From Euzebyella saccharophila (GTDB taxonomy: Bacteria > Bacteroidota > Bacteroidia > Flavobacteriales > Flavobacteriaceae), in assembly GCF_014855495.1 (NCBI RefSeq), contig NZ_JACYFJ010000001.1, forward strand, positions 496,001 to 560,000: DNA of 64,000 nucleotides, in the 5' to 3' direction. A program made the position numbers and the translations under genes. The notes beneath the pieces are model-generated. The model worked only from the letters and a program-made list of their open reading frames with translations. It searched no databases and had not been told where the DNA came from. Shown piece after piece: positions 17,273-61,428 of this stretch. Position 1 is the stretch's first letter. Each line of letters opens with the position of its first letter.

Positions 17273-17285
17273 TTAAAAAATTGTG

Positions 17286-18209
17286 ATGAAATTATTAAAC
17301 CCATATAAAATACTGGCCTTACTTCTACTGGGAACTTTCTATGCAAATGGACAGCAAGACCCACAGTATACCCAGTATCAATACAATCCTTTGACGGTAA
17401 ATCCGGGTTATGCGGGGTCAAGAGGACATCTTACACTGATTTCTCTCTATAGGAGTCAGTGGCAAGGAATAGAAGGTTCTCCGCAAACTATAACGTTCGG
17501 TATGGACACCCCGGTTGGCAAATTTGACGGGGTAGGCCTTTCCATCATTCAAGATGAGTTAGGTCCCGCCACAGAAACCTACATTGATGGTAATTATGCA
17601 CATCAGTTGGTCATTAACAACAAGGGTCACCGTATTGGTCTTGGGTTAAAGGCAGGAATTCGGTTGTTCAGCTTGGATTTTACAAAAGGAATCAGAAGAG
17701 ACCAAGATGATATTGCCTTCAACGAAAATGTAAATGGGAAGGTACTGCCCTCAATTGGTGCCGGAGCATTTTATTATTCAGAGAAGGCATATATAGGACT
17801 ATCTGTACCCAATTTATTTCCATCAGAACATTATGACCGGGAGATTGAGATAAAAGCGGACGAAAGTCTTCATATCAATTTAATCGCAGGATATGTATTT
17901 GATTTGAACGAATCCTTAAAGTTCAAGCCTTCCCTATTTGCCAAACAAGTGTTTGGGGCTCCAATATCCGTTGATGTTTCAGGCAATTTCTTGCTATACG
18001 AAAAACTAAACCTTGGCGTTAATTATAGATGGGATGATTCTGTGGCAGCCATTTTTGGGCTGCAAATTTCACCCCAATTTAACCTTGGTTATGCCTATGA
18101 TTATACCACCAGTGGACTAAATAATTATAATTCGGGTACCCATGAAATATTCTTGAGGTACCAATGGATATCGAGACTTAACAGACTAAAATCCCCTAGA
18201 TTTTTCTAA
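17286..18209 (+). CDS. PorP/SprF family type IX secretion outer-membrane protein
   Basis: A 307-residue beta-barrel-type protein with a signal peptide ending around YANGQQ. It shows the family N-terminal pattern QDPQYTQYQYNPLTVNPGYAGSRG and then many alternating amphipathic strands, ending in an aromatic-rich segment (HEIFLRYQWISR). SprF-like proteins are encoded next to SprB-like adhesins and are required to export type B cargo through the T9SS. This one lies 10 bp after the adhesin and 11 bp before the OmpA/PD40 gene, so it is likely dedicated to that adhesin. The codon before the ATG is a GTG at 17283 that would add one residue; ATG 17286 is preferred. Confidence 0.9.
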   Translation: MKLLNPYKILALLLLGTFYANGQQDPQYTQYQYNPLTVNPGYAGSRGHLTLISLYRSQWQGIEGSPQTITFGMDTPVGKFDGVGLSIIQDELGPATETYIDGNYAHQLVINNKGHRIGLGLKAGIRLFSLDFTKGIRRDQDDIAFNENVNGKVLPSIGAGAFYYSEKAYIGLSVPNLFPSEHYDREIEIKADESLHINLIAGYVFDLNESLKFKPSLFAKQVFGAPISVDVSGNFLLYEKLNLGVNYRWDDSVAAIFGLQISPQFNLGYAYDYTTSGLNNYNSGTHEIFLRYQWISRLNRLKSPRFF

Positions 18210-18220
18210 CATCCCAAATC

Positions 18221-43749: not shown

Positions 43750-45870
43750 ATGAAACTTGCCAAAAAAATAGCACTCATACTTTTTGCTGTCCTAGGTCTC
43801 ACTAATCTTCAGGCACAAGAAGACGATCCTATTCTCCTGTACAGTCCGGCATCACAAAACCTATTGAAATTCAATAGGTTTTTGATCAACCCTACCTTTT
43901 CCACTGTACAGGAAGATAAATCGTACATCAACCTATTACACCGAAACCAATCGGTACAGTTTAAGGATAATGACCAAACCTATTTTCTAAGTTACAGCGG
44001 TAGAATAGGGGATAGAAGTGGTTTAGGACTTAGCCTTTATACCCAATCCATTGGTCCGGTATCCAATATCGGTGTTTTGGCAAACTATGCCTATGGCATT
44101 AAACTAAGCGAAAAAAGCAACTTTACTTTTGGGGGCAATTTGGCATATTACAGTACAGGACTGGATAGAAACAATGTTGATGTTATTGATGCCGAAGATT
44201 TTAGACTCAACGGTACAGAAGATAGTAATGTTCTTTCATTTCAACCGGGCTTCAATATATCCTATGGGCAATTTGATTTTGGTGTTTTTGCCGAAAATCT
44301 CTTTGATTATAATTTAAAGACAAGCGAATCCTTAACCGACTTTGCGGACAAGACCTATTCTGCACATTTGCAATACACCCATCCTTTTACCAATGACTCA
44401 GGTATAATGGAAGGTAGTAGATTAATGCCTTTGGCCAGAGTAAGAATGAACGGCCAAAACAGATTTGCTGCGGATGACACTGAAGAAACGCAGGATATAT
44501 CCTTTGGTGGAGGTCTCATTTTAGATCTACCCAAAATTGGTTGGTTACAAGGCGGATATGACAGTTTTTATGGAGCTTCTGCCGGTGCTGGTTTTAATAT
44601 CAATAAAAGACTTTCCTTGGGATACACCATGGAAAAAGGATTTACTACCGACTTTGACAATCTAGGAATAACACACGAAATTTCTTTTGCCTATTCCTTT
44701 ACTCCTAACCTTACAGAAGACAGGGTAATGCTAGAGGAAGACTATGAAGATGAACTTGCTGATAGCGAGGATATAGATAAAAATAATCTCGCATCCAACG
44801 AGGAAATTGCCGAATTAAGGAGAAAACTAGCAGAAAACGATGCCATTATTGAAGAGTTGATGTTCCGTCAAGATTCCATGGAAGCTAGTAGACAAAGGGA
44901 TTTGGAAAGACGCTTTAACATGGTCATGAGTATGGTTAGGAATGAAACCAATGGAAGCAGACCTGACCTTGAAGACCGTGCCGAGGCCATGTTCCTAGGA
45001 AACAAAACAAGACCCGTAGTTGATACGGAGAATACAACAAACAACCAAATTATACCAAACAGTACAGAATTAACGAAGGCCGAAAAAGATGCGGTCATCA
45101 GGGCAACCAAAACCCAGGAACTGGCCAGCACCGATGCAAAGAAAAATGAACCGGTGGCAATTCAAAAATTAGCTGCAAACAACTCATCTAAACCCATTAA
45201 AAGTAGAAAATTTAAAAATTTAGATGGGGTACAAGATGGTTACTATGTAGTTGCCAACGTTTATAAGGGCGGCAAATACATGGACAATTTCCTGAACAAA
45301 ATGAACGATGAGGGTTTTGACCAAACCAACTATATAGACAATCCATCCAATGGACTTAAATATGTGTACCTAAAAAGATTCGATACATGGGATGAAGCTG
45401 TCAATGCCCACAACACTCAAATGGACGGTAACTACAATGGAGACCTATGGATTATGAATGTTGACAATAAATACAGCAATGAGGCCTACGCCAGTAACGT
45501 TGATAAACTCAAGGAGAAATCTGCCAAGTATGAAAATGATGTGCTTCAACAAAATGTAATTGTTAAAGATCAAGTTGCCTCGAAGGAATTAACCAGCAAG
45601 ACTTATAAAATTGATGGTATTGGAAGCGGTTATTATATCATAGCGAATGTATTCGCCAGTCCAAAAAATGCCAATCGGTTTGTAAAACTTTTAAACTCTT
45701 ACGGGTTAAGCGCAAGCTACTTTATCAACCCAGAAAACAATTGGAGATATGTCTATTTAAAAAGACATGAATCTTGGAACAATGCCCTAATATCCTACTA
45801 CACCAACCTAAACGATTCGTACAACGACAAGATGTGGATTATGCGAGTCAAACCAAACCTACTAGCCTAA
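43750..45870 (+). CDS. sprD: SprD-like PorP/SprF-type outer-membrane protein with two C-terminal SPOR-like domains
   Basis: A 706-residue exported protein. Signal peptide (ending NLQAQE, about residue 24). A PorP/SprF-like beta-barrel region (about 25-330: YSPASQNLLKFNRFLINPTF, many amphipathic strands, ISFAYSFTPNL). A charged coiled coil (about 341-398: IAELRRKLAENDAIIEEL). A linker. Then two related SPOR-like domains at about 494-575 (GYYVVANVYKGG, YVYLKRFDTW, DLWIMNVDN) and 624-704 (GYYIIANVFASP, YVYLKRHESW, KMWIMRVK). In F. johnsoniae SprD is encoded between sprC and sprB and supports SprB-dependent gliding. It starts 7 bp after sprC, and its stop directly abuts the sprB ATG. Confidence 0.82.
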   Translation: MKLAKKIALILFAVLGLTNLQAQEDDPILLYSPASQNLLKFNRFLINPTFSTVQEDKSYINLLHRNQSVQFKDNDQTYFLSYSGRIGDRSGLGLSLYTQSIGPVSNIGVLANYAYGIKLSEKSNFTFGGNLAYYSTGLDRNNVDVIDAEDFRLNGTEDSNVLSFQPGFNISYGQFDFGVFAENLFDYNLKTSESLTDFADKTYSAHLQYTHPFTNDSGIMEGSRLMPLARVRMNGQNRFAADDTEETQDISFGGGLILDLPKIGWLQGGYDSFYGASAGAGFNINKRLSLGYTMEKGFTTDFDNLGITHEISFAYSFTPNLTEDRVMLEEDYEDELADSEDIDKNNLASNEEIAELRRKLAENDAIIEELMFRQDSMEASRQRDLERRFNMVMSMVRNETNGSRPDLEDRAEAMFLGNKTRPVVDTENTTNNQIIPNSTELTKAEKDAVIRATKTQELASTDAKKNEPVAIQKLAANNSSKPIKSRKFKNLDGVQDGYYVVANVYKGGKYMDNFLNKMNDEGFDQTNYIDNPSNGLKYVYLKRFDTWDEAVNAHNTQMDGNYNGDLWIMNVDNKYSNEAYASNVDKLKEKSAKYENDVLQQNVIVKDQVASKELTSKTYKIDGIGSGYYIIANVFASPKNANRFVKLLNSYGLSASYFINPENNWRYVYLKRHESWNNALISYYTNLNDSYNDKMWIMRVKPNLLA

Positions 45871-48800
45871 ATGATACCAAAATATATTAAAAACATTCTT
45901 ACAGGTGTCCTATTCATGGTCACTTGCACCGTTTTTTCCCAAGAGTATACTTCTTTTACAAGAACATACCCATCTGGTGATAATTATAGGTATCAAACAA
46001 ATATTAAGGGTGATCTTACATTTATTTCCAATAGTATCCTAAATAGGGATGGGGGTACGTCTACCACTGAAGCAAATGACCCCTACAACAATCTAAATAC
46101 GAACAATAACGATTGGAACACGGAAACAGGAGGTAGACTCAATTACAATGACTATAAAAATATGCAGTATATAGATGTAGATTCTGATCCCTCTACATTT
46201 AGTTCGAGCACGGCAACCTTTAATTTTCCAAACCCAGATTGTAATCGCATTAGATATGCTGCTTTGTACTGGGCCGCAACCTACCCCAGTGCTACAGCTA
46301 ATGGTTCTTATACCGCTCCCGGAAATTATACACAAAATAACATTCCCGTAGGACAGGGGAGGCAAAATGATTTTAACCAAGTAAGATTTAGGGTTCCAGG
46401 AGGAACCTATATAAATATTACGGCCGATGAGATTCTTTATGATGGTTTTACCAGTGCCGATGCTTCTGTACGAGAAAATAGCCCCTATGCTTGTTATGCA
46501 GATGTAACCAATTTAATTACCCCTTTGGCAAACCCCGCAGGGGACTATACCGTTGCAAATATAAGGGCCACTACCGGAGGGCTCACTCCTGGAGGGGGTT
46601 CAACAGGTGGTTGGACATTGGTTATCGTATATGAAAATCCAAACCTAACGGGTAAACTAATCACCACTTTTGACGGTTTTGCAAGAGTTAGAGATACTGA
46701 CCAAGTAGATGTTAATTACTCAGGGTTTAATACCATTCCAGCTGGTCCGGTTAGGGCTAATGTAGGGGCGGCCACCTTAGAAGGTGACTTCAGGATTACA
46801 GGAGATCGGTTGAGAATTAGAGCTGCCAGCAATGGTGGTTTTACAACTCTAAGCAACGGAGCCAACCCTTCAACCAACTTTTTTAATAGTAACATTACTC
46901 TTAATGGCACCGTCACAACTAACAGAAACCCTGCAAGTATAAATACCCTAGGGTATGACACAGATATTTTTTTGGTAAATAACCCCTCCAATTCAGTCAT
47001 TCCAAACAATGAAACCGCTGCTACTTTTAGGTTTCAGACCAACGGAGATCAATATTATCCATTCTTTAATTCCTTTAATGTTGAGATTATAGAACCGGAT
47101 ATTGTACTTGAAAAACGTGTTGAAGACATTAGTGGTAATGATATTACAGGACAGGGAGTAAACTTAGGTCAAATTTTAGACTATGTGCTCACCTTCGAAA
47201 ACCTTGGAAACGATGATGCCGCAAATTATACCATTAGGGATATACTTCCCATAAATGTAACCTTGGATGAAAGCAATTTACAGATGCCCACTGGTACCTC
47301 TTATAATTTCAATCCGGCAACAAGGGAAGTCGTTTTTAATATTCCGTCTAATCTAGTTAGGGTAGGGCAACCGGCCTCTAGCATTCGGATGAGGGTACAA
47401 GTAGCAGAAAACTGCTTTGATTTTATAGATGCCTGTACGGATCTTATCCAAAACCTTGCTTTTTCAACCTACGAAGGTGTTATAAACGATAACCAAATCA
47501 CCGATGACCCTAGTGTCTCAGACTTTGATACCTGTGGATTTGTTACTCCTGGTGCCACCAACTTTCTTTTAGACGACCTTTCCGACTGTAATTTTACAAG
47601 AACCGTTCAACTTTGTGGGCTAGATGTTACCCTTGATGCAGGAGATAATTTTGATGATTACATTTGGGTTCGGGATGACAACAATAACGGTCAAATAGAC
47701 CCATCTGATCCGGTTCTTAACGATGGAAACCCAGATGGAGACCTCAGTACACTTGTTGTCAATGACATAGGAACTTATATTGTTGACAAAATTGTTGCAG
47801 ACCCCTGTAAAGGCTTTAAAGAAATAATTATTGTTGAAAGGTTTGGTACTGTTCAAACCAATCCCATAGTTGATTACTTTAATGCCTTGAATTCCGATGC
47901 CGACCCTACCAACGACATTCAAGGAGAAATAGTACAATGTAGCGTTGATGGTGATCTTTTACCCAATATATTCCTATGTGGTTCAAACGATTCCCAACTA
48001 TTACAAATTAATATTACGGACGCCAATCTTACATGGGAACGCTTAGATGAATCAAGTTGTTTACCGGCCCCGGATGATTGTGCCAATAAAAATCTTACCT
48101 GCCAATGGAGCTTTGAAGCATCAGGAAATAATTTCACAGCTAATTCAGCAGGAAAATACCGATTGGTAGTTAGTTATCAAAATGGATGTTTCAGTAGATT
48201 CTATTTTGATGTCTATCAAAACGAGCTTGACATAAATCACACTTCCAGGGATATCATTTGTAATACTGATGGAAACATTACCATTACCAATTTAGGAAGT
48301 AATTACGGTTTTCAACTAGTTGATGTAGCGAATGGGACCATTGTAGTGCCTTTTAGTGCTAATAACGGACCAAGTTTTGATATTGCAAACAATGGTGCAT
48401 ATCGAGTGGATATTACTCAACTGGATAGCTCTGGTAATCCCATACCCAATGCCTGTATATTTAGCACCCCCGACATCGGAATTCTTGATAGGGATTTTCA
48501 GGTAGATGTAGAAACTACTCCCGCCAATTGTAATGATCAGGGCACTATTAAAATTGACATCTTAAATGTTGAGCCCAACTATACCTACGTACTTAGAAGA
48601 GATGACGGTACGTTGATTGACGATGAAACGGCTAGTACAAATAATACCCATACCTTTCAGGTAAATGAAGGTGATTATATCATTGAAGCGTCAACTGAAG
48701 ATGGTTGTACTTATACTGAAAACGTACGAGTAGATAGAACTCCTGATCCCACAATTTCAGCCTTGACCATTAGTGATATTGGCTGTACGGCAGGGGTTAT

Positions 48801-51800
48801 TCAACTTACAGCCAACAATGGATACCCAAATCCAGATTACAACTATGCTATTTGGAGTAGAAATGGAGTAAACCTTTACCCAGATGTAGCTTCCATTCCA
48901 GGTGATGCATACGATACAGATCCCAATTTCGTATTTGGATGGAGAGATACCGATGCTGATGATGTGGAGGAATATTTTCCGGGAGAAGATGGTACCTATT
49001 CCTTCGTAGTGGTTGATGGTAACAACTGTTTTGCTTTCTCCAATGAGGTGACCATAAATGATAACGGTACCATGAGTATCGATTCCATTAGTGAAACCCA
49101 ACCTTCCTGTAGTGGTGATGCCGATGGGGAAATTGTAATAAACATAACAGGTGGAATAGCCCCCTATCAATACAGTATTGATGGTGGTACCACCTACCAA
49201 ACTACGCCAACTTTTGTAAATCTTTCCGCTGGAAGTTACTCCATAAGAGTATTGGATAGCTCTGGATGTGATCAATCTCAGACCCATGTTTTGAGCGAAC
49301 CTTTTCCTTTAAGTGCTTCAACAGGTGTTTCAAGAGATGCTACTTGTGACCCCAATGGGGCAGAGGTAAGGGTAACCAATGTTACCGGGGGTTCAGGTAC
49401 TTATCAATACAGTTTTGATGGGGGTGCCACCTATGGTGCATCAAGCGTTGCGGTGTTACCCCCAGGAGATTACACTGTAATTGTTGATGATGGTTCTTGT
49501 GAATTCCCAATGACGGTCTCGGTAGAAGATGTACCTGATGAGCCTGAAGTAACCTTAACTCCCGAAGTGAGTTATAATTGTGATGGCACAGGTACTATAA
49601 CGGCCACACCAAATATTGCTACATACAACTATACCTATGCGCTTGACGGTGTTCTCAATTCACCTGACCCAACTAGCAATATTTTTAATAATGTTACAGC
49701 AGGCACCTATACCGTAACCACCTATTATACTTCGCAAACCCCTCCAACGCCAAGTATTTTATTAAGTGAAGATTTTGGTAGCGGAGAAACCATACCTAGC
49801 CCGAATACTAGTGGCTATACGTATGAAGATCAAACTTCCGATCCTCCGGGAGACGCAAATAGCAATATCAACGACTTTGAATATTCCGTAACCAGTGATA
49901 TCGTTGCTCCATTTGGTTCTTGGCTTAGCCCAATTGACCATACCACCGGTACGCGTGCAAGTCAAGGTAGATATTTGGTAATGAATGTTGGGACACCAAC
50001 TCCTTCTCAAATCATCTATTCCAAACAAATCAATGACGTAATCCCCAATCAAGATTTAAGTATTTCGCTTTACATTCTTAATTTAATGCGTCAGGGTAGG
50101 AGTGGTCTCGATCCTGATTTAACCATAGAAATAAGAGAGGCCGGAACAACCAACGTTATCCAATCAATTAGAACAGGTATCATACCAAAAAATACAGGAC
50201 CAAGTGATTGGGTAGAGTTTACCGCAACCTTAAATCCAGGTGCGAATACCACGTTAGATTTTGTAATTAGATCGGAAATTACCGGTAACAATGGTAATGA
50301 TTTTGTGCTTGATGATATTACTGTACACCAAGTACCAGAGGTTTGTGAGCAATTCGTAGAAACCCCGGTTACCGTAGTTGCAGGTAATGTGTTTACAGCC
50401 GCTATTACTAGTGCTACCAATGCCACTTGTAACGGCGATACAGACGCTACCCTTACTATAGAAGCAGAAAATTTTGATGCCGTTGCCGGATTTGAATATT
50501 CCATTAACGGAGGTGCATTTATTAATGCTACCACCTCACCGGTTACTACTACGACACCATTAGGTGCTGGTAACTATACCATAGTGGTGAGAAAATCGGA
50601 TGAAATAACATGTTCCAGAACGCTTACGCATTCTATAACAGAACCAACAGCAGTAGTGGCCAGTGCTTCCGTTACAACCCAGCTTACTTGTACCAACGGT
50701 GGTGCAACTATTACGGCAAGTGCAACGGGTGGTACTCCAGGTTACGAATACCAATTAGAAGATAATTTGGGAGGTACCATAGCCGGTTTTGACTTCGCCT
50801 CCAACGGAAATAATACTGTTTTTGCAGGATTAGCAGCGGGAGATTATGTCGTTCGTGTAAGGGATGTCAACTTATGTGAAGATGTTATTGATACCTCCCT
50901 TACGGTTAGCCCTATTGACCCCATTGCCTTTACTGTTACACCCACGGCTTGTTATCCTGGCGGAAATACCGCAACTATTCAGGTTGATGTGACCAGTGGT
51001 AACGGAGATTATACCTTCAGCCTCAACGGAAATCCTTGGGTAACTCCTACACCAAGTACTGATACGACCTATACTTTTACCGGACTTTCCAACGGCACCT
51101 ACACCATTAATGTTCAAGATGGTCTTGGCTGCACCGGAACATTAGAAACGATTACAATTGATCCACAATTGACGGTAGGCGCTTCCGCACCTAACATTAC
51201 AGCCTGCGCCACCTCAACCGATATTAGTATTACTGCCACTGGCGGAGACAATAATTACGTATATGCTGTTGTGCTAAACGGAACTCCTGTGGTAGATGGT
51301 GATTTTAACAATACCAATCCAGTAAGCGTATCTGCAGCTGGGGATTATGATATTCATGTAAGGGACAATGGTGGTAATGCCGGTTATTGTTCAGCGGTTC
51401 ACACTCTTACAGTAGTTCAAGATGCACCTATTGCTTTTACTCCAACACCCACCGATGTTAGCTGTTTTGGTGGCACTGATGGTTCTATAGCCATTGTGGT
51501 GGATTCGGGTGGTAATACTCCTTTTATGTACAGCATTGATAATGGAGTAACCTATGTTACCGGAGATTCCTTCCCCAATTTATCCGCTGGAACTTACCCC
51601 GTACGAGTTAGGGATTCCAACAATTGTGAATCCGTTGTACAAAATGTTACCATAAATGAACCTGCACAGATAGTTGCGGAAGCTACACTCACACAAAATT
51701 ATACCTGTACCACTGATGGAGAGATTACTATTGGCAGTATAACTCCAACTTCCGGTGGTTCAGGAGATTATCAATACAGCATCAACGGAGGTGCTTGGAC

Positions 51801-54800
51801 GGCCTCTACCACTGGCGGTCACACATTTACCTCTCTAACCGACGGTACTTATAGCATACGCGTTAGGGACGCCAATGCCACTACGTGTGGAATTACTTTG
51901 GCAGATATTATTATTGCTCCCCTACCAGTGGAACCTACACTTTCGACATCTGTTGTATATAGCTGTGATGGTACAGGAACGATTACGGTTTTACCCAATG
52001 ACCCTTCTTATACCTATAGTTTGAATGGAAGCGCGGCACAGCCGTCCAATGTATTTGCCAATGTGGCCGTAGGTCTACATACCATCACTGTTAATTACGG
52101 AAGCAACTGTACAGTAGACACCAATGCCAACGTAGAAAACGGGCATGCTTTTGAAGCGAACATTGTTTCGTTTGAAAATTTGGACTGTAACGGAGATGGT
52201 TCGGGTACGATTACCATTGATGCGGATAATTATGGTGCAGGTGGTTTTGAATATAGCCTTAATGGCAACCCCTTCGTAGGTCCATTTAGTGCCGCCGAGC
52301 AAATCACAGGTTTAGCAGCCCAAGCTTATACCATTGTAGTGCGCGATGTTGATAATCCAATAGGCGGTTGTAGCGTTACATTGAATCAAACTTTAACCGA
52401 GCCAACTCCCGTAGTTACTACCGCATCCATTACGGAACAATTTACATGTGACAATACGGGAGCTACCATAACTGCTTCAGTTTCCGGAGGAACGCCGGCT
52501 TATGAATACCAACTAGAGGATAATTTAGGAAATCCAATAGCAAGTTTTGATTTTGCTACCAACGGAAATAATGCTGTATTTACAGGATTAGCAGCAGGAG
52601 ATTACATCGTAAGAGCGAGGGATACCAATGGTTGTAGTGATCCTATTGATGGCCCTATTTCAGTAACGGCCCCAGCAGTTCCCACTTTTACAACATCCGA
52701 AACCGCATGTTATGCAGGTGCCAACGATGCCACCATACAAGTAGATGTTACCGCAGGAAACGGTAATTATACTTTTAGTTTGGATGGTGGTCCGTTCATT
52801 ACACCCAATCCAAGTACAGCAGTAACATACACCTTTGAAAATTTATCGAACGGCACTTATACTATTGATGTAAGGGATGGTTATGGTTGTATGGCCGTAC
52901 AACAAACGGTAACTATTGAACCTCAGTTAGTAGTATCTATAGATATTGACGAAATTAGTTCTTGTAATGACGGAACCATTACGGTTAATGCTACCGGTGG
53001 CGATGGAAGTTATGTATATGCCTTTGTGCCAGCCAACACAAGCCCAACTGGGTTTTACGGCGGATCCAACACCTTTACGGTTACCAATGCCATGGCAACG
53101 GCAAATCCGGCAGGGTTTGATTTGTATGTACAAGATAATGGTGGAACCGCCCCTGTTTGCTCCTTTTTGCAGGAAGATATCATCCTTACACCCTCCACAC
53201 CTTTGACCGTATCTGGTACTCCAACGGATCCAGAATGTTATGATGGCTTAGGTTTTATTGATGTAACCGTAGGTGGTGGAAACGGACCTTTTACCTATCA
53301 ATTGGTGGATTTAAGTCCGGCAGACGGTATCGACTATGGCAATACCAATACGAATGTATTCACCAGCACCCTGACCTTTAATGGTATTGGAGTAGGGGAT
53401 TATGAAATTACCATTACTGATGAAGATAGCTGTACCGTAACCTCATCTACCGTTACCATTAACAATGCCGTAGAAATTACAGCGGACATCAACCCTATTT
53501 TACCGGCTGCGTGTAATGATCCAGACCCAAACGAATATGGATTTGAATTCGATAACATAGTTACACCTACCGGTGGAACCGTTGAATACAGTCATGATGG
53601 CGGTACATCATGGCAATTATCCAATGAATTAAGAGGGCACGTATCAGGTACAGAGGTATTCCCCTCTATACGGGTGACCCTACCTAGCGGCACTGTTTGT
53701 CAGCGAGATTTTGACAGGTATATTATTCCATATCCATTGGATAACCTAGATATAAGTATAAGTGCCATCGTAGTAAATTGTAACGACCTTCAAGTTCGTG
53801 TACAAGGTACTGCTGGTGTTGCACCATACGAATATGCCTATTCTGAAGATCCAGCAAATTTTGATCCTTTAACAACAACTTGGCAAACCGGAACTTCTAC
53901 AGATTCTGGTGGAAATGCAGTACCTGCTGGTCATGGTGCTTATACGTGGATGGGCCTAACGCCTGGTAGAACCTATGTATTCTATGTAAGAGATGCTACA
54001 GGTTGTGTGCGTCAGAGCCTTATCAACGTTAACGATCTTATCACCAGACCCATTGAAATAACCGAAGTAGTAACCCCAACCTGTTTTGGAGGTTCTACGG
54101 GTGAAATAGAATATACCCTCAACCCGGGAACACCAAGTAGCCACATGAGATGGGAGTTCTTTGAAGTAGGCAATCCAATTGCCTTACAGACTAGTGGAGG
54201 TAATATTTTATTCAACAATACCATCAATATAACCGGATTGACGGAAGGGGAATACTACATAGAAATTGTACAGTCTGATGGAACTATAGACTCCTGTACT
54301 GGCGGTAGTGAAAATAGTTACTTAAATGAATTAAACGCTTTAAACGGAACGCCAAACGCTACGAGAGACATTTCTTGTAACCTTCCTGGATTAATTACCG
54401 TTGACAACATTACCGGAGGAGGTGGTGCCCCTTACACATTTGATGTTACAGGTCCAGCAGGTTTTACCGCTATGACGGGTATAACCACCAATCCTATTGA
54501 AATTCCAGTGAATTCACCGGCAGGTAATTATACGGTTACCATGTACGATCAATACAATTGTTCGGTTACGATGGCTCCTATCAATCTTGACCTGTCACCA
54601 AATCCGACCATTGATTCGGTTACTCAAGATAATTGCGCTGCCCCTATAAGTCTAACCGCTGTAGGTAATTCAGCAGCTGGTAACCTTCGATATGCCATCG
54701 TTACGGCCGGAAACCCAGCACCTAGTACGTATGTCGATAATGGAGGTGTTTTCAATAATGTAACTCCAGGTGATTACGATGTATATGTTATGGATGGTAA

Positions 54801-57800
54801 CGGATGTATAGCTACACAACCTTCTTATACCGTTCACCCTGTACTTTCAGCCGATGTACAGCTGACCAAATTATTGGATTGTACCGCTACCCCAGATGCT
54901 GTTATCAGCATTGAAGCTTTAGCAGGTTCTGGCAGCTATGAATATTCAATTACCAATACAGCAGGGGCTCCGGCAGTTGCACAGACCGCCTTCCCAAGTA
55001 ATCCTTTTGATTACAATGCTCCCTTGGCAGGCGATTATACCATTACCATTTACGATACGAATACGCCCAATAGCGCCACTTGTAATAGAGAATTTACCAT
55101 TTCGGTACCAGCTAGAATAGAACCTATTGTAGATACGATTGCAACCACTGATGTTACCTGTAATGGCGATTCTGATGGTACCATTACCATTGGTGCCACT
55201 AATACCCCAATCGGTCCGTTTACCTTTGAAATAACCTCATTTGACGGGGCGGCTACAAGTATTTTGCCAACCAGTACCACAGCAAATACGGCGACCTTTA
55301 CCGGTCTTGCCCCTACAACAACACCCGCAGGTTATATTATTACTATTACGGCCGCTGCTTCCAATAACTGTACGGTCGATAGTAGCTCAATTACCATTGC
55401 AGAACCGGCTCCTATTGCGGTAACCATGGCACCAACGGTAGAATTTGCATGTGTGGTTGGTAACAATGAAAATAATGCCAGCATAACGGTTCAAAATACA
55501 ACCGGAGGTTCCAATAATTTTGTGAGGTATGAATTCATTAATGACCTTGCTCCCGGAACACCAGTTCAAGATGGTCCGGATGCCACCTACGTAGAAACGA
55601 ATTTTGCAGGTGGAAACTACACCATCAATGTTTATGATGACAATGGTTGTGTGGGTACCACTACAGCAAGTATCGCACCTTTTGATGAATTACAATCGGC
55701 CACGATAACCGTAAATCAAACCATAACTTGTTTAACAGGGGAGGAAATTACCATCAATGCTTTCGGTTCTATAACAGATTCAAGTACACCTGCAGGTCTT
55801 GCCAATTACGAGTTTAGACAATTGCCAAGTGGAACTTTCCAGGCATCCAATATCTTCAGCAATTTACCTACGGGAAGCCATTCATTTGAAGTGAGAAATG
55901 TCAACACCAATTGTATCATTTCTGTTTCCCATACGGTTGGAGAACCTAATAATTTCGAAATTTCAGTGACCACTACAGATGTGGAATGTCATGGAACGGA
56001 TGGAACCGTAAGCTTTACCATTTCAGATGCCATAAATCCATATGCAGGCGGATTTACATGGCAAATTTACAATTCCCAAGGAACAACCACTACGGCTGAC
56101 GATACCCTTATCGCCGCTGCCAATGGAGTTTCTGCAGGGGTAGGGCCCACAACACCATTCGCTATTGGGGCAGGGGAGTACCGCGTTGAAATTACCCAAG
56201 ATTCCAATCCGTTCTGTGTATCTTCGGAATTGTTCAATATTGCAGGGCCATCAGACCCATTATCAGCCAACACCGATGTTACCCAAGTTACTTGTGATGG
56301 AAATAACGGTATTATTGAAATCATCGATTCGCAAGGCGGATGGGGAGGATACACCTATTTTGTGGCTCCGACCACTGATCCTGGACCTACCTTTCCGGGT
56401 AGTTATTTCGCCAACCCAAGATTTACTGGTCTCGCGGGTGCCCCAGGTGCTGGAATCGACTATCAAGTATGGATTGCCGATCAAAACGGATGTGAATTCC
56501 GTTTACCAGATGTCAACTTAACAGATCCTACACCTATTACCGCTGATCTAAGAATCAATCAACCTAACTGTACCAACTTGGAAGGTGAAATTGAGGTAAT
56601 CAATGTTTCTGGAGGTCAAGGAAGCAATTACAGCTATCAATTACAGATTTTCAATTCAGGTACTTCTACTTATGATGATTTTCGGACAATACAGACCAAT
56701 CCTATTTTTAGTGGTTTGGGTGCCGGTCAATATCAAGTAATCGTAAGCGACCAATGGAATTGTTCTGCCTCAACATCGGCAAGTATCGAACTTTATGAGC
56801 CAATCGTTCCTTTGGCCACGGTGGTAAAAACGATTGACTGTTCTACAACAGATCCAGGAGGTCAAATAACTATCACACAAACTGGTGGTTCGGGTAACTT
56901 CAATTATTCGGTCCTATATCCCGATGGTGTAACTACCGACGCCAACACAACAGGTATATTTACTGGTTTGACCCAGGATGACACGATTGGAGAATATGTT
57001 TTCACCATTACCGACCAAGATGTTAACCACGCTTGTAGTACGACTATTAGACAAAGCCTTTCCCCGGAAGTAATACCGGTTATTAATGTAGATAACTCCA
57101 CCAATGTTACTTGTAACGGTGCCAATGATGGTACTATTACCGTAAGTACTACGGATAGTGGGGTAGGACCTTATACCTTCAGGATTATTGCTGGGAATGG
57201 TAGTACACCAGGTTCACCTATTCTTCCAACAGCTTCAAGTAATACTGCTGCGACATTTACCGGTTTAACCGGAAGCACGGCAGGAATTACTTATACGGTT
57301 GAAGTAAGAGGCGCCAATAATTGCGCCATTACGACCGATGTTACCATTACGGAGGAAGACCCTATTACAGTAAACGCTATTTCTATTGTACAATACGGTT
57401 GTACTGCTGGCAATAATACGAACAACGCCACTGTTTCTTTTACGGGTGCAACAGGCGGAACAGGTACTTATGTGCGATATGTATTCTTACGAGATGGCAT
57501 TGTGGTGCAAGACGGTGCTAATACGACCTACAACGAAACCGATGGTCTTGGTGGCACCTACGAACTTAGGGTTTATGATGATGCAGGATGTTCCGCAATT
57601 TCTGCTTCCGATGTGGTAATTCCTTTTGTAGAAATAACCGATCCCGTGGTGACTACCACCCAAGATGCCGCTTGTAATCCTACAAATGATGCAGAAATTC
57701 AAGTAGGTATTACCATAAATCCGGCGACGGCTACACCAAATTTGGAGTTCGTGGTCGAAGGACTTAATGTAACCTATTTACAGACTATCAACTCTAGTAA

Positions 57801-60453
57801 TGATACTGAAACATTTATTGGTTTAGAATTTGGAAACTATAGAGTTACCATTACCAATTTGGATACGGGTTGTGTCTTGGAAACAGTGCATTCTGTTGAA
57901 GATCCAGACATGATAGAAGTAGTCGCTACCAAACTTACCGATGAAGAATGTTTAAATGATGGAGTAGATGATGGTAGTTTCAGTATCGTCATCAACAACT
58001 ATACTGGTGCCTATACCTACCAAGTATTTGATGTAAATGATAATCCTGTGGCTGGCTATGCAGGAACAGGAAATACCTCAACAGCCTTGGCTCCATTCAC
58101 CAATTTACCAGGTGGCATCTACTATGTAAGGGTAACCGCTACAGATGCTCCGCGATGTGATGACGATTCTAACACCATAACCATTCTTTCTCCTAGTGCG
58201 CCTATTACGGCCACTATTCGAGAGGAAGCCAATGTAACTTGTTCCAACGATCAAGGAAGTATTTTGGTTGATCCAACAGGTGGAGTGGGACCATATACCA
58301 TTCGTCTTGAAAATAATACTACCTCACAGGTTTATACTGAAACTAATGTGGAGGCCTTTATTTTCACAGGATTGTCCGCGGGAGATTTTCATGTGACCAT
58401 AACAGATGCTTACAGTTGTGTGCTTTCCGATAACATCACGTTAGTAAGACCAGATGATATTGTTGCTAGTATTTCAGCAACTACCTTAAGTTGTTTCAAC
58501 GACAATACAGCCAGTGTGACCGCTACAGTTGATCCTAGAAATATTACTCCTGTTTATCAGTATCAATTAAATGTTTATGATGATGCTGTTGGTTCAAACC
58601 TATTAAGAACTTCGGCACCTCAATCTAACGCTACCTTTAATGGTTTGGCGGCAGGATTCTATAGCATTACCGTAACTGATGATGTAAGTTGTTCCGATGA
58701 GACTTTCATTGTAGAAATTGTAAATCCCACAGAAGTAACGGCTCAACTGATCAGAACAAGTCCGTTGACCTGTACTACGGGAGTTGAATTTGAATTGAGT
58801 GCTTCTGGCGGAAGCGGTACTTACGAATATAGCGATGACAATGTTACGTGGTCGCCAATGATCGGTAATAGTGTAAACCTCCCGCTTTCAGGTATGTTAT
58901 CTGCAGGTATATACAGATATTATGTTAGGGATGCGGTAAATATGTGTACAGCGGTACTTTCCAATTCCATTGAGGAAGATATGATTGATCCATTGACATT
59001 AACGGTGGACACTTCGGCGGCAGTGATTAACTGTAACGGCGACAATACCGCCACTATCTATGCAGATGCCGAAGGCGGATTAGGTAACTATCAATACGAA
59101 TTGTATACGGATGCTACCTTAAATCCCGCATCAAGAATTGCAGGTCCACAACCTCTGGGTGAGTTCAGAAATCTTATTGCTGGTACTTATTATGTGAATG
59201 TATACAGTGAAGATTGTACTACTCCTGCTCAAAGAGTGGATATTACAGAACCTACCCCATTGGAATACACAGATGAGGTAATCAATGTTACTTGTAATGG
59301 AGAGGAAGACGGTCAAATAACCGTTAACCTATCGGGTGGTACAGGAAATTATCAATACTCCATTTCACCAAACCTAGATAGATTTGATGATGAAAACGTC
59401 TTTGAAGATTTAGCTCCTGGGGACTATACAGTTATTGCCCAAGATGGTAACGGATGTTTTATAGAATTACAATATACCATTACAGAACCTAGCATTATTG
59501 AGGTTGAAGCAATAGCATTACCAGAAGTTTGTGTAGGAGAAGAAAACGGTTCAATTGAATTAACTATTACTGGGGGGACAGCTCCTTACAGTACACGTTT
59601 GGTAAATGAAACCACTTTTGTTCAAGATCGGACCCAAATTTCAGGCTTAGCCGCAGGTGATTATATACTCTTTATTCAAGATGCCAATGGTTGTGAGGAG
59701 AATGTATTTGTAACAATTGATCCCGGTGTAAATCTTGATGCTTCCATTGAGCCGGTATACGGATGTAACGGAGATACGGCAAACAATTATGTAAACATAT
59801 TACTGGAAGATGAAAGTATTTCCGATGAGGTATTGTACGGTCTTGATACTACTGATCCGGCTCAAATGCAATTAAATCCTTTCTTTAGGGATTTAAGTTC
59901 CGGAACACATTACGTTGCTATTTCGCACCAAAACGGATGTATCGTTACCCACGAGTTCGAAATAGAGCATTTTGACCCATTGGAACTGACCCTTTCACAA
60001 GGTAACATCAATGAGATTGTGGCCACTGTTACTGGTGGAAGAGAAGAGTATACTATTTACTTTGGAGATACCAACTACGGTACCGATAACACGTACTATA
60101 TCAACAGGACCGATACTTATATAGTTACCGTTGTCGATGCCAATGGTTGTGAGGTATCTGCCAGTATAGAAATGGAGTTTATAGACATTGATATTCCTAA
60201 TTTCTTTACCCCAAATGGAGATTCGGAAAATCAATTCTGGAAGCCTAAAAACGATGAAGGCTTCCCTGAGATACTAACCATAATTTTTGATCGTTATGGT
60301 AGAGAGGTGTACCGATTAGGTGCCGGCGATCGTGGCTGGGACGGAACGTATCAGCAGAAGGAATTACCAACCGGAGATTACTGGTACGTAATAAAACTCA
60401 GAGGTGAAAATGACGACCGAGAGTTTGTTGGACACTTTACCCTATATCGATAA
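45871..60453 (+). CDS. sprB: SprB giant gliding-motility adhesin
   Basis: A 4860-residue exported protein, the largest in the window (F. johnsoniae SprB is about 6500). Signal peptide (ending TVFSQE, about residue 24); an N-terminal exported domain to about 400 (CYADVTNLI, WTLVIVYENP); a DUF11 module (about 410-515); a beta-rich Cys-containing region. A long array of about 42 SprB-type repeats follows (about 797-4770), each with a pattern like VTCNGDNDGTI, GG-x-Y-x-Y, a Gly-rich turn, Y-x-V-x-V-x-D and G-C. One repeat is interrupted by a jelly-roll insert (about 1295-1490). The last 87 residues are a CHU_C domain (PNFFTPNGDSENQFW, FDRYGREVYRL, GDYWYVIKL). In F. johnsoniae SprB is exported by the T9SS and moves along the cell surface during gliding. 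It is flanked by sprD (0 bp) and sprF (21 bp). Confidence 0.88.
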   Translation: MIPKYIKNILTGVLFMVTCTVFSQEYTSFTRTYPSGDNYRYQTNIKGDLTFISNSILNRDGGTSTTEANDPYNNLNTNNNDWNTETGGRLNYNDYKNMQYIDVDSDPSTFSSSTATFNFPNPDCNRIRYAALYWAATYPSATANGSYTAPGNYTQNNIPVGQGRQNDFNQVRFRVPGGTYINITADEILYDGFTSADASVRENSPYACYADVTNLITPLANPAGDYTVANIRATTGGLTPGGGSTGGWTLVIVYENPNLTGKLITTFDGFARVRDTDQVDVNYSGFNTIPAGPVRANVGAATLEGDFRITGDRLRIRAASNGGFTTLSNGANPSTNFFNSNITLNGTVTTNRNPASINTLGYDTDIFLVNNPSNSVIPNNETAATFRFQTNGDQYYPFFNSFNVEIIEPDIVLEKRVEDISGNDITGQGVNLGQILDYVLTFENLGNDDAANYTIRDILPINVTLDESNLQMPTGTSYNFNPATREVVFNIPSNLVRVGQPASSIRMRVQVAENCFDFIDACTDLIQNLAFSTYEGVINDNQITDDPSVSDFDTCGFVTPGATNFLLDDLSDCNFTRTVQLCGLDVTLDAGDNFDDYIWVRDDNNNGQIDPSDPVLNDGNPDGDLSTLVVNDIGTYIVDKIVADPCKGFKEIIIVERFGTVQTNPIVDYFNALNSDADPTNDIQGEIVQCSVDGDLLPNIFLCGSNDSQLLQINITDANLTWERLDESSCLPAPDDCANKNLTCQWSFEASGNNFTANSAGKYRLVVSYQNGCFSRFYFDVYQNELDINHTSRDIICNTDGNITITNLGSNYGFQLVDVANGTIVVPFSANNGPSFDIANNGAYRVDITQLDSSGNPIPNACIFSTPDIGILDRDFQVDVETTPANCNDQGTIKIDILNVEPNYTYVLRRDDGTLIDDETASTNNTHTFQVNEGDYIIEASTEDGCTYTENVRVDRTPDPTISALTISDIGCTAGVIQLTANNGYPNPDYNYAIWSRNGVNLYPDVASIPGDAYDTDPNFVFGWRDTDADDVEEYFPGEDGTYSFVVVDGNNCFAFSNEVTINDNGTMSIDSISETQPSCSGDADGEIVINITGGIAPYQYSIDGGTTYQTTPTFVNLSAGSYSIRVLDSSGCDQSQTHVLSEPFPLSASTGVSRDATCDPNGAEVRVTNVTGGSGTYQYSFDGGATYGASSVAVLPPGDYTVIVDDGSCEFPMTVSVEDVPDEPEVTLTPEVSYNCDGTGTITATPNIATYNYTYALDGVLNSPDPTSNIFNNVTAGTYTVTTYYTSQTPPTPSILLSEDFGSGETIPSPNTSGYTYEDQTSDPPGDANSNINDFEYSVTSDIVAPFGSWLSPIDHTTGTRASQGRYLVMNVGTPTPSQIIYSKQINDVIPNQDLSISLYILNLMRQGRSGLDPDLTIEIREAGTTNVIQSIRTGIIPKNTGPSDWVEFTATLNPGANTTLDFVIRSEITGNNGNDFVLDDITVHQVPEVCEQFVETPVTVVAGNVFTAAITSATNATCNGDTDATLTIEAENFDAVAGFEYSINGGAFINATTSPVTTTTPLGAGNYTIVVRKSDEITCSRTLTHSITEPTAVVASASVTTQLTCTNGGATITASATGGTPGYEYQLEDNLGGTIAGFDFASNGNNTVFAGLAAGDYVVRVRDVNLCEDVIDTSLTVSPIDPIAFTVTPTACYPGGNTATIQVDVTSGNGDYTFSLNGNPWVTPTPSTDTTYTFTGLSNGTYTINVQDGLGCTGTLETITIDPQLTVGASAPNITACATSTDISITATGGDNNYVYAVVLNGTPVVDGDFNNTNPVSVSAAGDYDIHVRDNGGNAGYCSAVHTLTVVQDAPIAFTPTPTDVSCFGGTDGSIAIVVDSGGNTPFMYSIDNGVTYVTGDSFPNLSAGTYPVRVRDSNNCESVVQNVTINEPAQIVAEATLTQNYTCTTDGEITIGSITPTSGGSGDYQYSINGGAWTASTTGGHTFTSLTDGTYSIRVRDANATTCGITLADIIIAPLPVEPTLSTSVVYSCDGTGTITVLPNDPSYTYSLNGSAAQPSNVFANVAVGLHTITVNYGSNCTVDTNANVENGHAFEANIVSFENLDCNGDGSGTITIDADNYGAGGFEYSLNGNPFVGPFSAAEQITGLAAQAYTIVVRDVDNPIGGCSVTLNQTLTEPTPVVTTASITEQFTCDNTGATITASVSGGTPAYEYQLEDNLGNPIASFDFATNGNNAVFTGLAAGDYIVRARDTNGCSDPIDGPISVTAPAVPTFTTSETACYAGANDATIQVDVTAGNGNYTFSLDGGPFITPNPSTAVTYTFENLSNGTYTIDVRDGYGCMAVQQTVTIEPQLVVSIDIDEISSCNDGTITVNATGGDGSYVYAFVPANTSPTGFYGGSNTFTVTNAMATANPAGFDLYVQDNGGTAPVCSFLQEDIILTPSTPLTVSGTPTDPECYDGLGFIDVTVGGGNGPFTYQLVDLSPADGIDYGNTNTNVFTSTLTFNGIGVGDYEITITDEDSCTVTSSTVTINNAVEITADINPILPAACNDPDPNEYGFEFDNIVTPTGGTVEYSHDGGTSWQLSNELRGHVSGTEVFPSIRVTLPSGTVCQRDFDRYIIPYPLDNLDISISAIVVNCNDLQVRVQGTAGVAPYEYAYSEDPANFDPLTTTWQTGTSTDSGGNAVPAGHGAYTWMGLTPGRTYVFYVRDATGCVRQSLINVNDLITRPIEITEVVTPTCFGGSTGEIEYTLNPGTPSSHMRWEFFEVGNPIALQTSGGNILFNNTINITGLTEGEYYIEIVQSDGTIDSCTGGSENSYLNELNALNGTPNATRDISCNLPGLITVDNITGGGGAPYTFDVTGPAGFTAMTGITTNPIEIPVNSPAGNYTVTMYDQYNCSVTMAPINLDLSPNPTIDSVTQDNCAAPISLTAVGNSAAGNLRYAIVTAGNPAPSTYVDNGGVFNNVTPGDYDVYVMDGNGCIATQPSYTVHPVLSADVQLTKLLDCTATPDAVISIEALAGSGSYEYSITNTAGAPAVAQTAFPSNPFDYNAPLAGDYTITIYDTNTPNSATCNREFTISVPARIEPIVDTIATTDVTCNGDSDGTITIGATNTPIGPFTFEITSFDGAATSILPTSTTANTATFTGLAPTTTPAGYIITITAAASNNCTVDSSSITIAEPAPIAVTMAPTVEFACVVGNNENNASITVQNTTGGSNNFVRYEFINDLAPGTPVQDGPDATYVETNFAGGNYTINVYDDNGCVGTTTASIAPFDELQSATITVNQTITCLTGEEITINAFGSITDSSTPAGLANYEFRQLPSGTFQASNIFSNLPTGSHSFEVRNVNTNCIISVSHTVGEPNNFEISVTTTDVECHGTDGTVSFTISDAINPYAGGFTWQIYNSQGTTTTADDTLIAAANGVSAGVGPTTPFAIGAGEYRVEITQDSNPFCVSSELFNIAGPSDPLSANTDVTQVTCDGNNGIIEIIDSQGGWGGYTYFVAPTTDPGPTFPGSYFANPRFTGLAGAPGAGIDYQVWIADQNGCEFRLPDVNLTDPTPITADLRINQPNCTNLEGEIEVINVSGGQGSNYSYQLQIFNSGTSTYDDFRTIQTNPIFSGLGAGQYQVIVSDQWNCSASTSASIELYEPIVPLATVVKTIDCSTTDPGGQITITQTGGSGNFNYSVLYPDGVTTDANTTGIFTGLTQDDTIGEYVFTITDQDVNHACSTTIRQSLSPEVIPVINVDNSTNVTCNGANDGTITVSTTDSGVGPYTFRIIAGNGSTPGSPILPTASSNTAATFTGLTGSTAGITYTVEVRGANNCAITTDVTITEEDPITVNAISIVQYGCTAGNNTNNATVSFTGATGGTGTYVRYVFLRDGIVVQDGANTTYNETDGLGGTYELRVYDDAGCSAISASDVVIPFVEITDPVVTTTQDAACNPTNDAEIQVGITINPATATPNLEFVVEGLNVTYLQTINSSNDTETFIGLEFGNYRVTITNLDTGCVLETVHSVEDPDMIEVVATKLTDEECLNDGVDDGSFSIVINNYTGAYTYQVFDVNDNPVAGYAGTGNTSTALAPFTNLPGGIYYVRVTATDAPRCDDDSNTITILSPSAPITATIREEANVTCSNDQGSILVDPTGGVGPYTIRLENNTTSQVYTETNVEAFIFTGLSAGDFHVTITDAYSCVLSDNITLVRPDDIVASISATTLSCFNDNTASVTATVDPRNITPVYQYQLNVYDDAVGSNLLRTSAPQSNATFNGLAAGFYSITVTDDVSCSDETFIVEIVNPTEVTAQLIRTSPLTCTTGVEFELSASGGSGTYEYSDDNVTWSPMIGNSVNLPLSGMLSAGIYRYYVRDAVNMCTAVLSNSIEEDMIDPLTLTVDTSAAVINCNGDNTATIYADAEGGLGNYQYELYTDATLNPASRIAGPQPLGEFRNLIAGTYYVNVYSEDCTTPAQRVDITEPTPLEYTDEVINVTCNGEEDGQITVNLSGGTGNYQYSISPNLDRFDDENVFEDLAPGDYTVIAQDGNGCFIELQYTITEPSIIEVEAIALPEVCVGEENGSIELTITGGTAPYSTRLVNETTFVQDRTQISGLAAGDYILFIQDANGCEENVFVTIDPGVNLDASIEPVYGCNGDTANNYVNILLEDESISDEVLYGLDTTDPAQMQLNPFFRDLSSGTHYVAISHQNGCIVTHEFEIEHFDPLELTLSQGNINEIVATVTGGREEYTIYFGDTNYGTDNTYYINRTDTYIVTVVDANGCEVSASIEMEFIDIDIPNFFTPNGDSENQFWKPKNDEGFPEILTIIFDRYGREVYRLGAGDRGWDGTYQQKELPTGDYWYVIKLRGENDDREFVGHFTLYR
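48250..60180 (+). repeat. SprB module array (about 42 modules) with apparent seven-module super-repeat
   Basis: About 42 modules of roughly 75-105 residues each begin near a Cys. Comparable Cys codons recur every seven modules, at 49108, 51463, 53236, 55159, 57112 and 59032. The spacings are 785 codons (including a jelly-roll insert of about 200), then 591, 641, 651 and 640. The clearest neighbouring matches are modules 7-9 with 14-16 and modules 25-26 with 32-33. Confidence 0.7.
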
Positions 60454-60474: not shown

Positions 60475-61428
60475 ATGCGCAAAATACTATGGCCCTTGTT
60501 GCTCTTTATGGGCATCATAACCACAAAAGCCCAAGAGCTCAACTCTCCACAGCTCTCCCAATATTTGGCGGACAATCCCTTTGTCCTGTCCCCTGTATAT
60601 GCAGGTATTGGAGATCACGTTAAAATTAGACTTAACGGACTTACGCAGTGGGTAGGTATTAAAGATGCTCCGCAGACCCAGTCATTGGCAGCTGATATGC
60701 GTTTGGGAGAAAAATCAGGTATCGGTGTGTTTTTGTACAATGATAAAAATGGATATACCAAACAACAAGGTGCACGTGTTTCTTTTGCCCACCACTTAAC
60801 CTTGGATCGTTATGACGATGAATTCTTATCCTTTGGTATTTCATATAATTTTAACCAATTTAGGATTGATATCGATGAATTTATCGATGCTAATTTAGAC
60901 CCAGGGGTCATCAACAATAGACAGACCAGCAACCATAACTTTGACGTGGGTGCCATGTACCGCTATGGTAAATTTTACCTTAGTGCCAATGCCTCCAACC
61001 TATTAGGTAAAGACCCCAGTAATTTTACATTTGACGCAGATGAGCCCAACGAGCTTAGAAATTACTATGTGTATACAGGGTACAGATATAGAAAGAACAA
61101 AAATTCCGATCTAGAAATCGAACCCTCTTTACTTTTCAAAGTTTTTGAGAGTGATGGTCGTTCAGAAACCGATTTAAACCTAAAATTTAGATGGTATGAT
61201 TTTGAAGACTACTATTATGCAGGTGTTAACTATCGTTTCTTAAATGACCAAATAGGTAGTCCATTATACATTGCACCTTTTGCGGGTTTAAAGAAGAACA
61301 ACTTCTACTTTGGTTATTCGTATCAAATAATACTTAATGAAATTATTACGTATAGTACAGGTACCCATGTTGTTACTATAGGAGTAGATCTTTTTCAAGG
61401 TTTGAGTAACTGTCGTTGTACATACTAA
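60475..61428 (+). CDS. sprF: SprF, PorP/SprF family protein
   Basis: A 317-residue exported beta-barrel-type protein. Signal peptide (ending TKAQEL, about residue 20), then the family pattern SPQLSQYLADNPFVLSPVYAGIGDHVKIRLNGLTQWVGIKDAPQTQ, and barrel strands to a C-terminus ending in NCRCTY. In F. johnsoniae SprF is required for SprB to reach the cell surface, while the T9SS core still works without it. The gene lies 21 bp after sprB and ends the operon. It is a paralogue of the PorP/SprF protein at 17286-18209, serving another adhesin. Confidence 0.88.
   Translation: MRKILWPLLLFMGIITTKAQELNSPQLSQYLADNPFVLSPVYAGIGDHVKIRLNGLTQWVGIKDAPQTQSLAADMRLGEKSGIGVFLYNDKNGYTKQQGARVSFAHHLTLDRYDDEFLSFGISYNFNQFRIDIDEFIDANLDPGVINNRQTSNHNFDVGAMYRYGKFYLSANASNLLGKDPSNFTFDADEPNELRNYYVYTGYRYRKNKNSDLEIEPSLLFKVFESDGRSETDLNLKFRWYDFEDYYYAGVNYRFLNDQIGSPLYIAPFAGLKKNNFYFGYSYQIILNEIITYSTGTHVVTIGVDLFQGLSNCRCTY

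Follow-up and report, generated by a model that had tools for sequence, protein, structure and literature searches.

Mirror symmetry in the evolution of a giant SprB-like gliding adhesin suggests a fold-back filament with two matched antiparallel arms

The SprB-like protein encoded in a 64,000-nt stretch of the Euzebyella saccharophila genome (contig NZ_JACYFJ010000001.1, positions 496,001 to 560,000; the window) is probably a fold-back, or hairpin, filament composed of two antiparallel arms. The pairing of the arms, their physical contact and their belonging to one molecule and not two are deduced from evolutionary patterns: the lines of evidence share one axis, which is most simply explained by an antiparallel, in-register arrangement of the two halves, most probably in a single chain. 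The same patterns suggest a structural repeat of seven modules and the exposure of modules 18-23 as a tip. Such an architecture would bear on how so long and thin an adhesin withstands gliding forces. Neither a seven-module register, matched arms nor a hairpin was described in the literature listed on SprB repeats and structure, in which subscription papers and preprints were thinly represented.

The assignment to the SprB gliding adhesin family was based on three features found together: PF13573 SprB repeats in tandem (E 8.3e-98, 11 stretches in the domain search), a TIGR04131 T9SS type B sorting domain at the C end (E 2.6e-24), and an adjoining gene for a PorP/SprF-type carrier. The SprB of Flavobacterium johnsoniae (~6,500 aa) is a protein of the same kind, being a type B substrate with SprB repeats and an adjoining sprF-like carrier, and the nearest named relatives found were those of Cytophaga sp. 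FL35 (98% over the N-terminal domain) and Euzebyella marina (88%). The sprF-like gene lies downstream of sprB, and sprC-like and sprD-like genes lie upstream:

41484..43742, + strand: sprC-like gene (T9SS CTD, Ig-like)
43750..45870, + strand: sprD-like gene (PorP/SprF-type domain)
45871..60453, + strand: sprB-like gene, 4860 aa, with N-terminal domain, 42 complete modules and 1 partial, and T9SS type B C-terminal signal
45871..48231, + strand: N-terminal non-repeat domain, aa 1-787, kept as a unit in relatives; module 1 begins at aa 788
49735..50346, + strand: domain of ~204 aa inserted in module 6, as placed by the module limits
60187..60450, + strand: T9SS type B sorting domain, aa 4773-4860 (TIGR04131)
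60475..61428, + strand: sprF-like PorP/SprF carrier gene (TIGR03519, E 5.5e-62)

Residues 788-4766 correspond to 42 complete modules and a partial 43rd, delimited by paired Cys; in the 69 genes with 43 modules, Cys was found near both ends of 2825 of 2898 modules. The insert of module 6 gave a sub-threshold MAM-like match (E 0.044), and in relatives it occurred in module 6 or 13, in both, in neither, and once also in module 10, sites 6 and 13 being seven modules apart. Elsewhere in the window, positions 8867-20695 encode three products in a row: a DUF11-repeat protein of 2801 aa that carries a T9SS type B sorting domain, an ORF of 308 aa, and a protein resembling OmpA/PorE, with scores below the curated cut-offs.

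In the proposed architecture, modules 1-20 would head outwards after the N-terminal domain, the chain would turn near modules 20/21, and modules 21-40 would return beside the first arm, module i adjoining approximately module 41-i. Module 41 and those after it, together with the sorting domain, would constitute a short stalk that SprF holds at the outer membrane. In the paired arms the structure would repeat every seven modules along each arm, and the gene would grow or shrink by duplication or loss of a seven-module block; such a length change would persist if the facing stretch of the other arm changed equally, or if twice that number of modules were added around the turn. The corresponding segments of the window would be:

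48232..54036, + strand: putative N arm, modules 1-20 (module limits, mirror covariation, balanced length changes)
53203..54840, + strand: putative turn or tip, modules 18-23 (rarely deleted, divergent, centre of mosaic tracts)
54055..59493, + strand: putative C arm, modules 21-40 (module limits, mirror covariation, balanced length changes)
59512..60168, + strand: putative unpaired C-terminal stalk, modules 41, 42 and partial 43 (in some relatives longer by 3, 6 or 9 modules)

The initial annotation of the window had proposed that each module resembles the seventh one after it more than its direct neighbours. This was borne out in a 42 x 42 module matrix, in which offset 7 had a mean score of 89.4 versus 46-60 at the other offsets from 1 to 35 (z = 9.9; offset 1, z = -0.4), was the sole significant offset, and was not equalled in any of 5000 permutations of module order. 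The signal rests on modules 4-18 and 25-35. Six of the pairs that had been singled out (4/11, 6/13, 7/14, 8/15, 9/16 and 25/32), together with 10/17 and 26/33, were reciprocal best matches above the 99th percentile of 756 module pairs at offsets other than a multiple of seven; identity was 68% for 8/15, 65% for 9/16, and 43% for 25/32 and 26/33. These are just 8 of the 35 offset-7 pairs. Pair 5/12, also listed as a clear case, was weaker, with a score of 93, below the 99th percentile, and with neighbour 4 as the best partner of module 5; pair 19/26, described as weak by eye, was at noise level. The matched Cys codons, said to stand about 590-650 codons apart, did so at 586-654 codons in 29 of 35 pairs, and the other six (785-810 codons) span the ~200-aa insert of module 6. 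The copies can be delimited as follows:

49078..51423, + strand: N-arm block copy A, modules 4-10 including the insert (pairs 4/11, 6/13, 7/14, 8/15, 9/16, 10/17; 5/12 weaker)
51433..53196, + strand: N-arm block copy B, modules 11-17 (same pairs)
55126..56253, + strand: C-arm block copy A, modules 25-28 (pairs 25/32 and 26/33; 28/35 weak, 27/34 not above noise)
57079..58197, + strand: C-arm block copy B, modules 32-35, paired with C-arm copy A

Stripes at every multiple of seven had also been expected. In the window alone, offsets 14, 21 and 28 were silent (z -0.2, 0.5 and 0.4), and they emerged when 63 orthologous arrays of equal size were averaged (z 13.5, 5.8, 2.9 and 2.5 for 7, 14, 21 and 28). 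An organisation of roughly 6 x 7 modules did not hold: besides the silence of the window at these offsets, in the 63-orthologue average 33 of the 42 modules (3 and 5-36) had their best partner at an offset divisible by seven, leaving modules 1, 2, 4 and 37-42 outside the register. When the whole protein was compared with itself by blastp, no off-diagonal row appeared, and Tandem Repeats Finder, with its period limit of 500, found no array in the gene. The offset-7 resemblance is thus real, but its reach was overstated by the initial annotation.

Among orthologues gathered from relatives, the top offset was 7 in 75 of the 86 arrays examined, some of which are the same gene fetched twice; in the other 11 it was 14 (seven arrays), 11 (two), 10 (one, L017) or 29 (one). 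An alternative module model derived from relatives separated the modules less well and was abandoned. The suggestion of growth by duplication of seven-module blocks of about 1.8-2 kb was strongly supported in these relatives, in which the blocks were mostly of 1.7-1.95 kb. At the DNA level, 75 of 82 internal-repeat rows, from 50 genes, were exactly 7, 14 or 21 modules apart, four were mixed and one module off (L132, L164, L201, L203), and three differed, at 3 modules in L168 and L196 and at 5 in L113. In the 57-module genes L111, L146, L159 and L164 the best three-module run was identical within both arms, so that these duplications, or their homogenisation, must be recent. Growth one module at a time was rejected as the chief mechanism (offset 1, z -0.4 in the window and -1.5 in the 63-array average), with an exception near the C end, where modules 37/39 and 40/41 were alike in that average. 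What had been missed is that blocks are usually gained or lost in matched pairs, one in each half of the protein, a pattern suggestive of a structural constraint and not of block duplication alone.

The matched changes were observed after 121 genes were aligned module by module to the 43-module reference; a missing module was supplied wherever 80-140 residues separated consecutive modules, and a false first hit was discarded. Seven genes were set aside, four that run off a contig (L013, L157, L169, L188) and three paralogues (L026, L027, L028), and 114 were counted. As many as 105 of these hold 23, 29, 43 or 57 modules, and only 1 of the 114 holds 50; by closed frames, the array sizes were 43 (69 genes), 57 (13), 29 (16 and a paralogue) and 23 (7), with few others. 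An arm differed from the reference in 44 of the 114 genes, and in 40 of the 44 the N and C halves differed equally: 16 at -7/-7, 13 at +7/+7, 7 at -10/-10, 1 at +3/+3, and 3 further genes at -7/-7 plus C-terminal extensions. A change of -8/-7 in L200 possibly reflects a missed first module. The unbalanced genes were L137 (+7/0), L113 (+7/-2) and L191 (+7/-9); they possibly result from the collapse of near-identical repeats in assembly, and some draft genomes may contain such repeats in misassembled form. The 4445-aa frame of L191 lacks its C end, including the final partial module and an evident sorting motif, possibly by a frame break or an assembly fault. Other unbalanced extra modules were found after module 40 only and in threes (+3, +6 or +9), in the five genes L025, L168, L179, L196 and L200, two of which, L168 and L196, are those with DNA repeats three modules apart. 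Since steps of 3 and 10 also occur, the seven-module step reads as a favoured, not absolute, structural repeat of the paired arms. Modules 19-21 were deleted in no counted size variant as aligned, module 18 in four and modules 22-23 in five, the placement of a deletion within a heptad being ambiguous.

Array sizes were scattered over two approximate FastTree trees, one of the N-terminal domain and one of the tip modules, which require at least 10-11 changes of state for arrays of 57 modules and at least 10-13 for those of 29. The exact number of size-change events is uncertain, because the two trees disagree with each other and because in some genomes two sprB-like copies lie near each other. 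Two such genes on one contig, of ~4,400-4,700 aa and ~2,700 aa, were seen in G019 (L023), G118, G194 and G214, and G005 carries two close together, both of ~4,740 aa.

The position of the duplicated blocks followed the same symmetry. In 57-module genes, for which the centres of the N and C blocks were predicted to sum to 55, the sums were 55.0 in L146, 54.5 in L159, 55.0 in L164, in which both blocks are shifted outwards together, 55.5 in L165 and L162, and 56.5 in L111; in L201, with 43 modules, the sum was 40.5 against a predicted 41. Poorer fits were given by L145 (58.0), L015 (52.5) and L197 (53.5), each with 55 predicted, and the unbalanced genes missed badly (L137, 52 versus 48; L191, 53 versus 39). 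L157 and L169, also in this set, run off a contig, and no sum could be taken for L014, L113, L119 and the window, where no pair in one of the arms exceeded the threshold. The identities of the N-arm and C-arm copies correlated, at rho 0.75 over the 69 genes and 0.84 over the 13, values that are uncorrected for kinship. In L185, L203, L204, L182 and other members of a sister group, the seven-offset pairs that are most alike straddle the turn, and fourteen-offset repeats were found in L023, as expected if the addition of 14 modules at the turn lengthens each arm by seven.

The modules also covary as mirror images. Each module's divergence was taken over all gene pairs and the gene-wide trend removed, and it was observed that module i tracks module 40-41 minus i (mean residual r ~0.35, next neighbours 0.40). 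Among sums from 20 to 63, values were positive at 37-44 only, and none of 20000 random pairings was as high as the mirror pairing. For all 18 of the N-arm modules 1-18, the sum with the best-matching C-arm module was 36-43, although for modules 17 and 18 the best partner, 21, may be a mere neighbour. The axis was displaced as predicted to 54-55 in 57-module genes and to 26-27 in 29-module genes; in the 23-module class (7 genes) there was no mirror signal. A subset of 32 independent pairs peaked at sums 42, 41 and 40 (r 0.22, 0.19 and 0.11); its permutation null was badly centred (mean -0.53) and was left unused. Modules 19-24 were among the most divergent.

The DUF11 protein at 8867-17272 was first meant as a control, and was replaced owing to its few end-to-end matches in the 33 genomes searched. 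The control used was the stretch of the same operon formed by sprC, sprD and the N-terminal domain, cut into 40 segments in 65 sequences, which gave a neighbour r of 0.31 and a best anti-sum of 0.09, off centre. Within the array, modules 1-20 alone gave no positive sum, and modules 21-40 alone gave one, at r 0.12 (five pairs).

In the 43-module orthologues, the repeat region from about module 2 to module 38 exists in two deep allele classes (44 and 25 genes), which cut across the tree of the N-terminal domain as if swapped between lineages. Within each class the best sum was still 40 (r 0.19 and 0.34); the per-module tracking was lost in the larger class (rho -0.13) and was -0.75 in the smaller. 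Two more giant SprB-repeat families were noted, L209-L228 and L027 with L229-L248 (4.1-4.3 and 2.8-2.9 thousand aa). In the second paralogue family, whose arrays were parsed as 29-31 modules and, once anchored on the insert as module 6 with earlier hits dropped, hold 29 in 20 of 20 genes, the covariation axis was at 27 (20 genes). The third family, parsed as 27-30 and similarly edited (29 in 19 of 21 genes, 30 in two), showed the axis weakly, at 27 (r 0.12).

A further line of evidence came from mosaic genes. Gene pairs that are alike outside a tract and unlike inside it, or the reverse, had both tract ends at mirrored modules, as in 8-32, 10-32, 2-38, 7-32, 11-28, 17-24 and 18-22, and the tracts centre on modules 18-23. 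In 16 gene-disjoint pairs, which even so are not fully independent, the two ends summed to 39-44 with the first end ranging from module 2 to 18, and 0 of 5000 random placements of equal tracts containing the axis were as tight. The test gave 70 of 5000 in 57-module genes (5 pairs), 2 of 5000 in 29-module genes (5 pairs), and 1 of 5000 in paralogue-2 (9 pairs, in which nearly one tract, from 10 to 17-19, recurs); paralogue-3 failed it (5 pairs, 4862 of 5000). Among 2345 gene pairs, one-breakpoint mosaics with R2 above 0.7 were rare (4 pairs), versus 197 pairs with a clear two-ended tract. The evolutionary signatures that would be expected of equal antiparallel arms and a tip were mostly found, with exceptions in L137, L113, L191, the 23-module class and paralogue-3.

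The mirror rule might instead hold between chains, if two SprB molecules lay antiparallel and the N half of one paired with the C half of the other, which would explain the matched lengths, the covariation, the mirror duplications and the tracts equally well. This arrangement seems unlikely in view of how SprB is attached. According to PMC12635249, SprF anchors SprB at the cell surface, and according to PMC12618676 the C-terminal domain suffices for targeting; the anchor is thus at the C end, and an antiparallel pair would place one of its two anchors at the far end. The unbalanced extensions, in threes and at the C end only, likewise look like those of a stalk, as the hairpin would have it.

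It is quite improbable that the register has no structural reason and was merely set by an ancient seven-module duplication and kept by later unequal crossing-over. Such a neutral history accounts for the existence of the register and for the duplications that follow it, but leaves unexplained the matched changes in both halves (40/44 genes), the near absence of 50-module genes (1/114), and the mirrored placement of duplications and tract ends; moreover, older heptad copies are often just 25-45% alike.

A symmetric gradient, in which inner modules evolve fast as an exposed tip and outer ones slowly, would alone yield a mirror signal, and the inner modules are in fact more divergent. However, the tracts are step-like (R2 up to 0.91, with 0.78 inside and 0.18 outside), and a smooth gradient gives no such steps with mirrored ends at many depths. 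Nor could it yield a +7/+7 change or a pair such as Maribacter vaceletii (L120) and L118, which differ at modules 3-17 and 24-37 and share 18-23. This explanation is very improbable, and a gradient of such symmetry would in its turn hint at a fold-back. Finally, it is hardly credible that the arms do not touch and that the period matches a repeating partner, as the super-repeats of 7 and 11 Ig/FN3 modules of titin match the thick filament that sets their period, since no such partner emerged in this analysis and a partner alone fails to explain why module i follows about 41-i.

Titin and SprB are both long arrays with a higher-order module period, titin without a fold-back. Streptococcal antigen I/II may be an analogue of the proposed hairpin: this adhesin has two intertwined arms, a tip formed from mid-chain, and both ends near the base. 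SprB would work alike, but in antigen I/II one arm is helical and the other a polyproline strand, in place of Ig-like modules.

F. johnsoniae SprB is reported to form a filament of ~150 nm (PMC13104615). By a rough argument, ~60 Ig-like modules in line, at our estimate of ~4 nm each, would be longer than this, and the reported length would suit a fold-back. In the AlphaFold2 model of modules 15-27 beta structure prevailed and the modules were confident (pLDDT 83); its pTM of 0.42, versus 0.35 for an arm-only stretch, did not discriminate, and the model says nothing firm on arm pairing. Its best structural match was GhpA of Aureispira (PDB 9flp, 9fly, 9flw, 9flv, 9flu), with E 6.9e-27, 17% identity and a whole-length rmsd of 135 A for 9flp. 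A sequence search of solved structures with the whole window SprB returned no chain at E<=1e-5, and one with the A1 profile returned nine at E<=0.1, comprising phage decoration and Hoc proteins as well as Ig-like and fibronectin-type domains, and no GhpA. The likeness to GhpA, as modelled, is one of fold only, with no sequence match in these searches. According to PMC13319060, GhpA is a 5,898-residue monomer that spans its filament and is heptameric, its seven being of chains and that of SprB of modules; by analogy, a monomer spanning its filament would count against a fold-back of SprB.

Matched indels, mirror-placed mosaic ends and mirror covariation could expose fold-back in other giant repeat proteins, the method being suited to those too long for structure prediction; if the hairpin is true, the fold of a molecule of ~500 kDa would have been revealed by evolutionary symmetry alone. 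For the Flavobacteriaceae, we consider it rather likely that the main gliding adhesin is a double-stranded antiparallel Ig-like rope with a seven-module repeat and matched arms of 10, 13, 20, 23 or 27 modules, in which tips and matching arm segments are swapped together, and that at least one paralogous family is built likewise. The length of the adhesin would be quantised because both arms must match, and the complete modules would number two more than twice those of an arm, apart from any extension of the stalk. In such a hairpin, the N-terminal domain would lie beside the anchor and the middle of the chain would be the gripping tip, the filament would have half the length for a given mass, and two strands would share the load.
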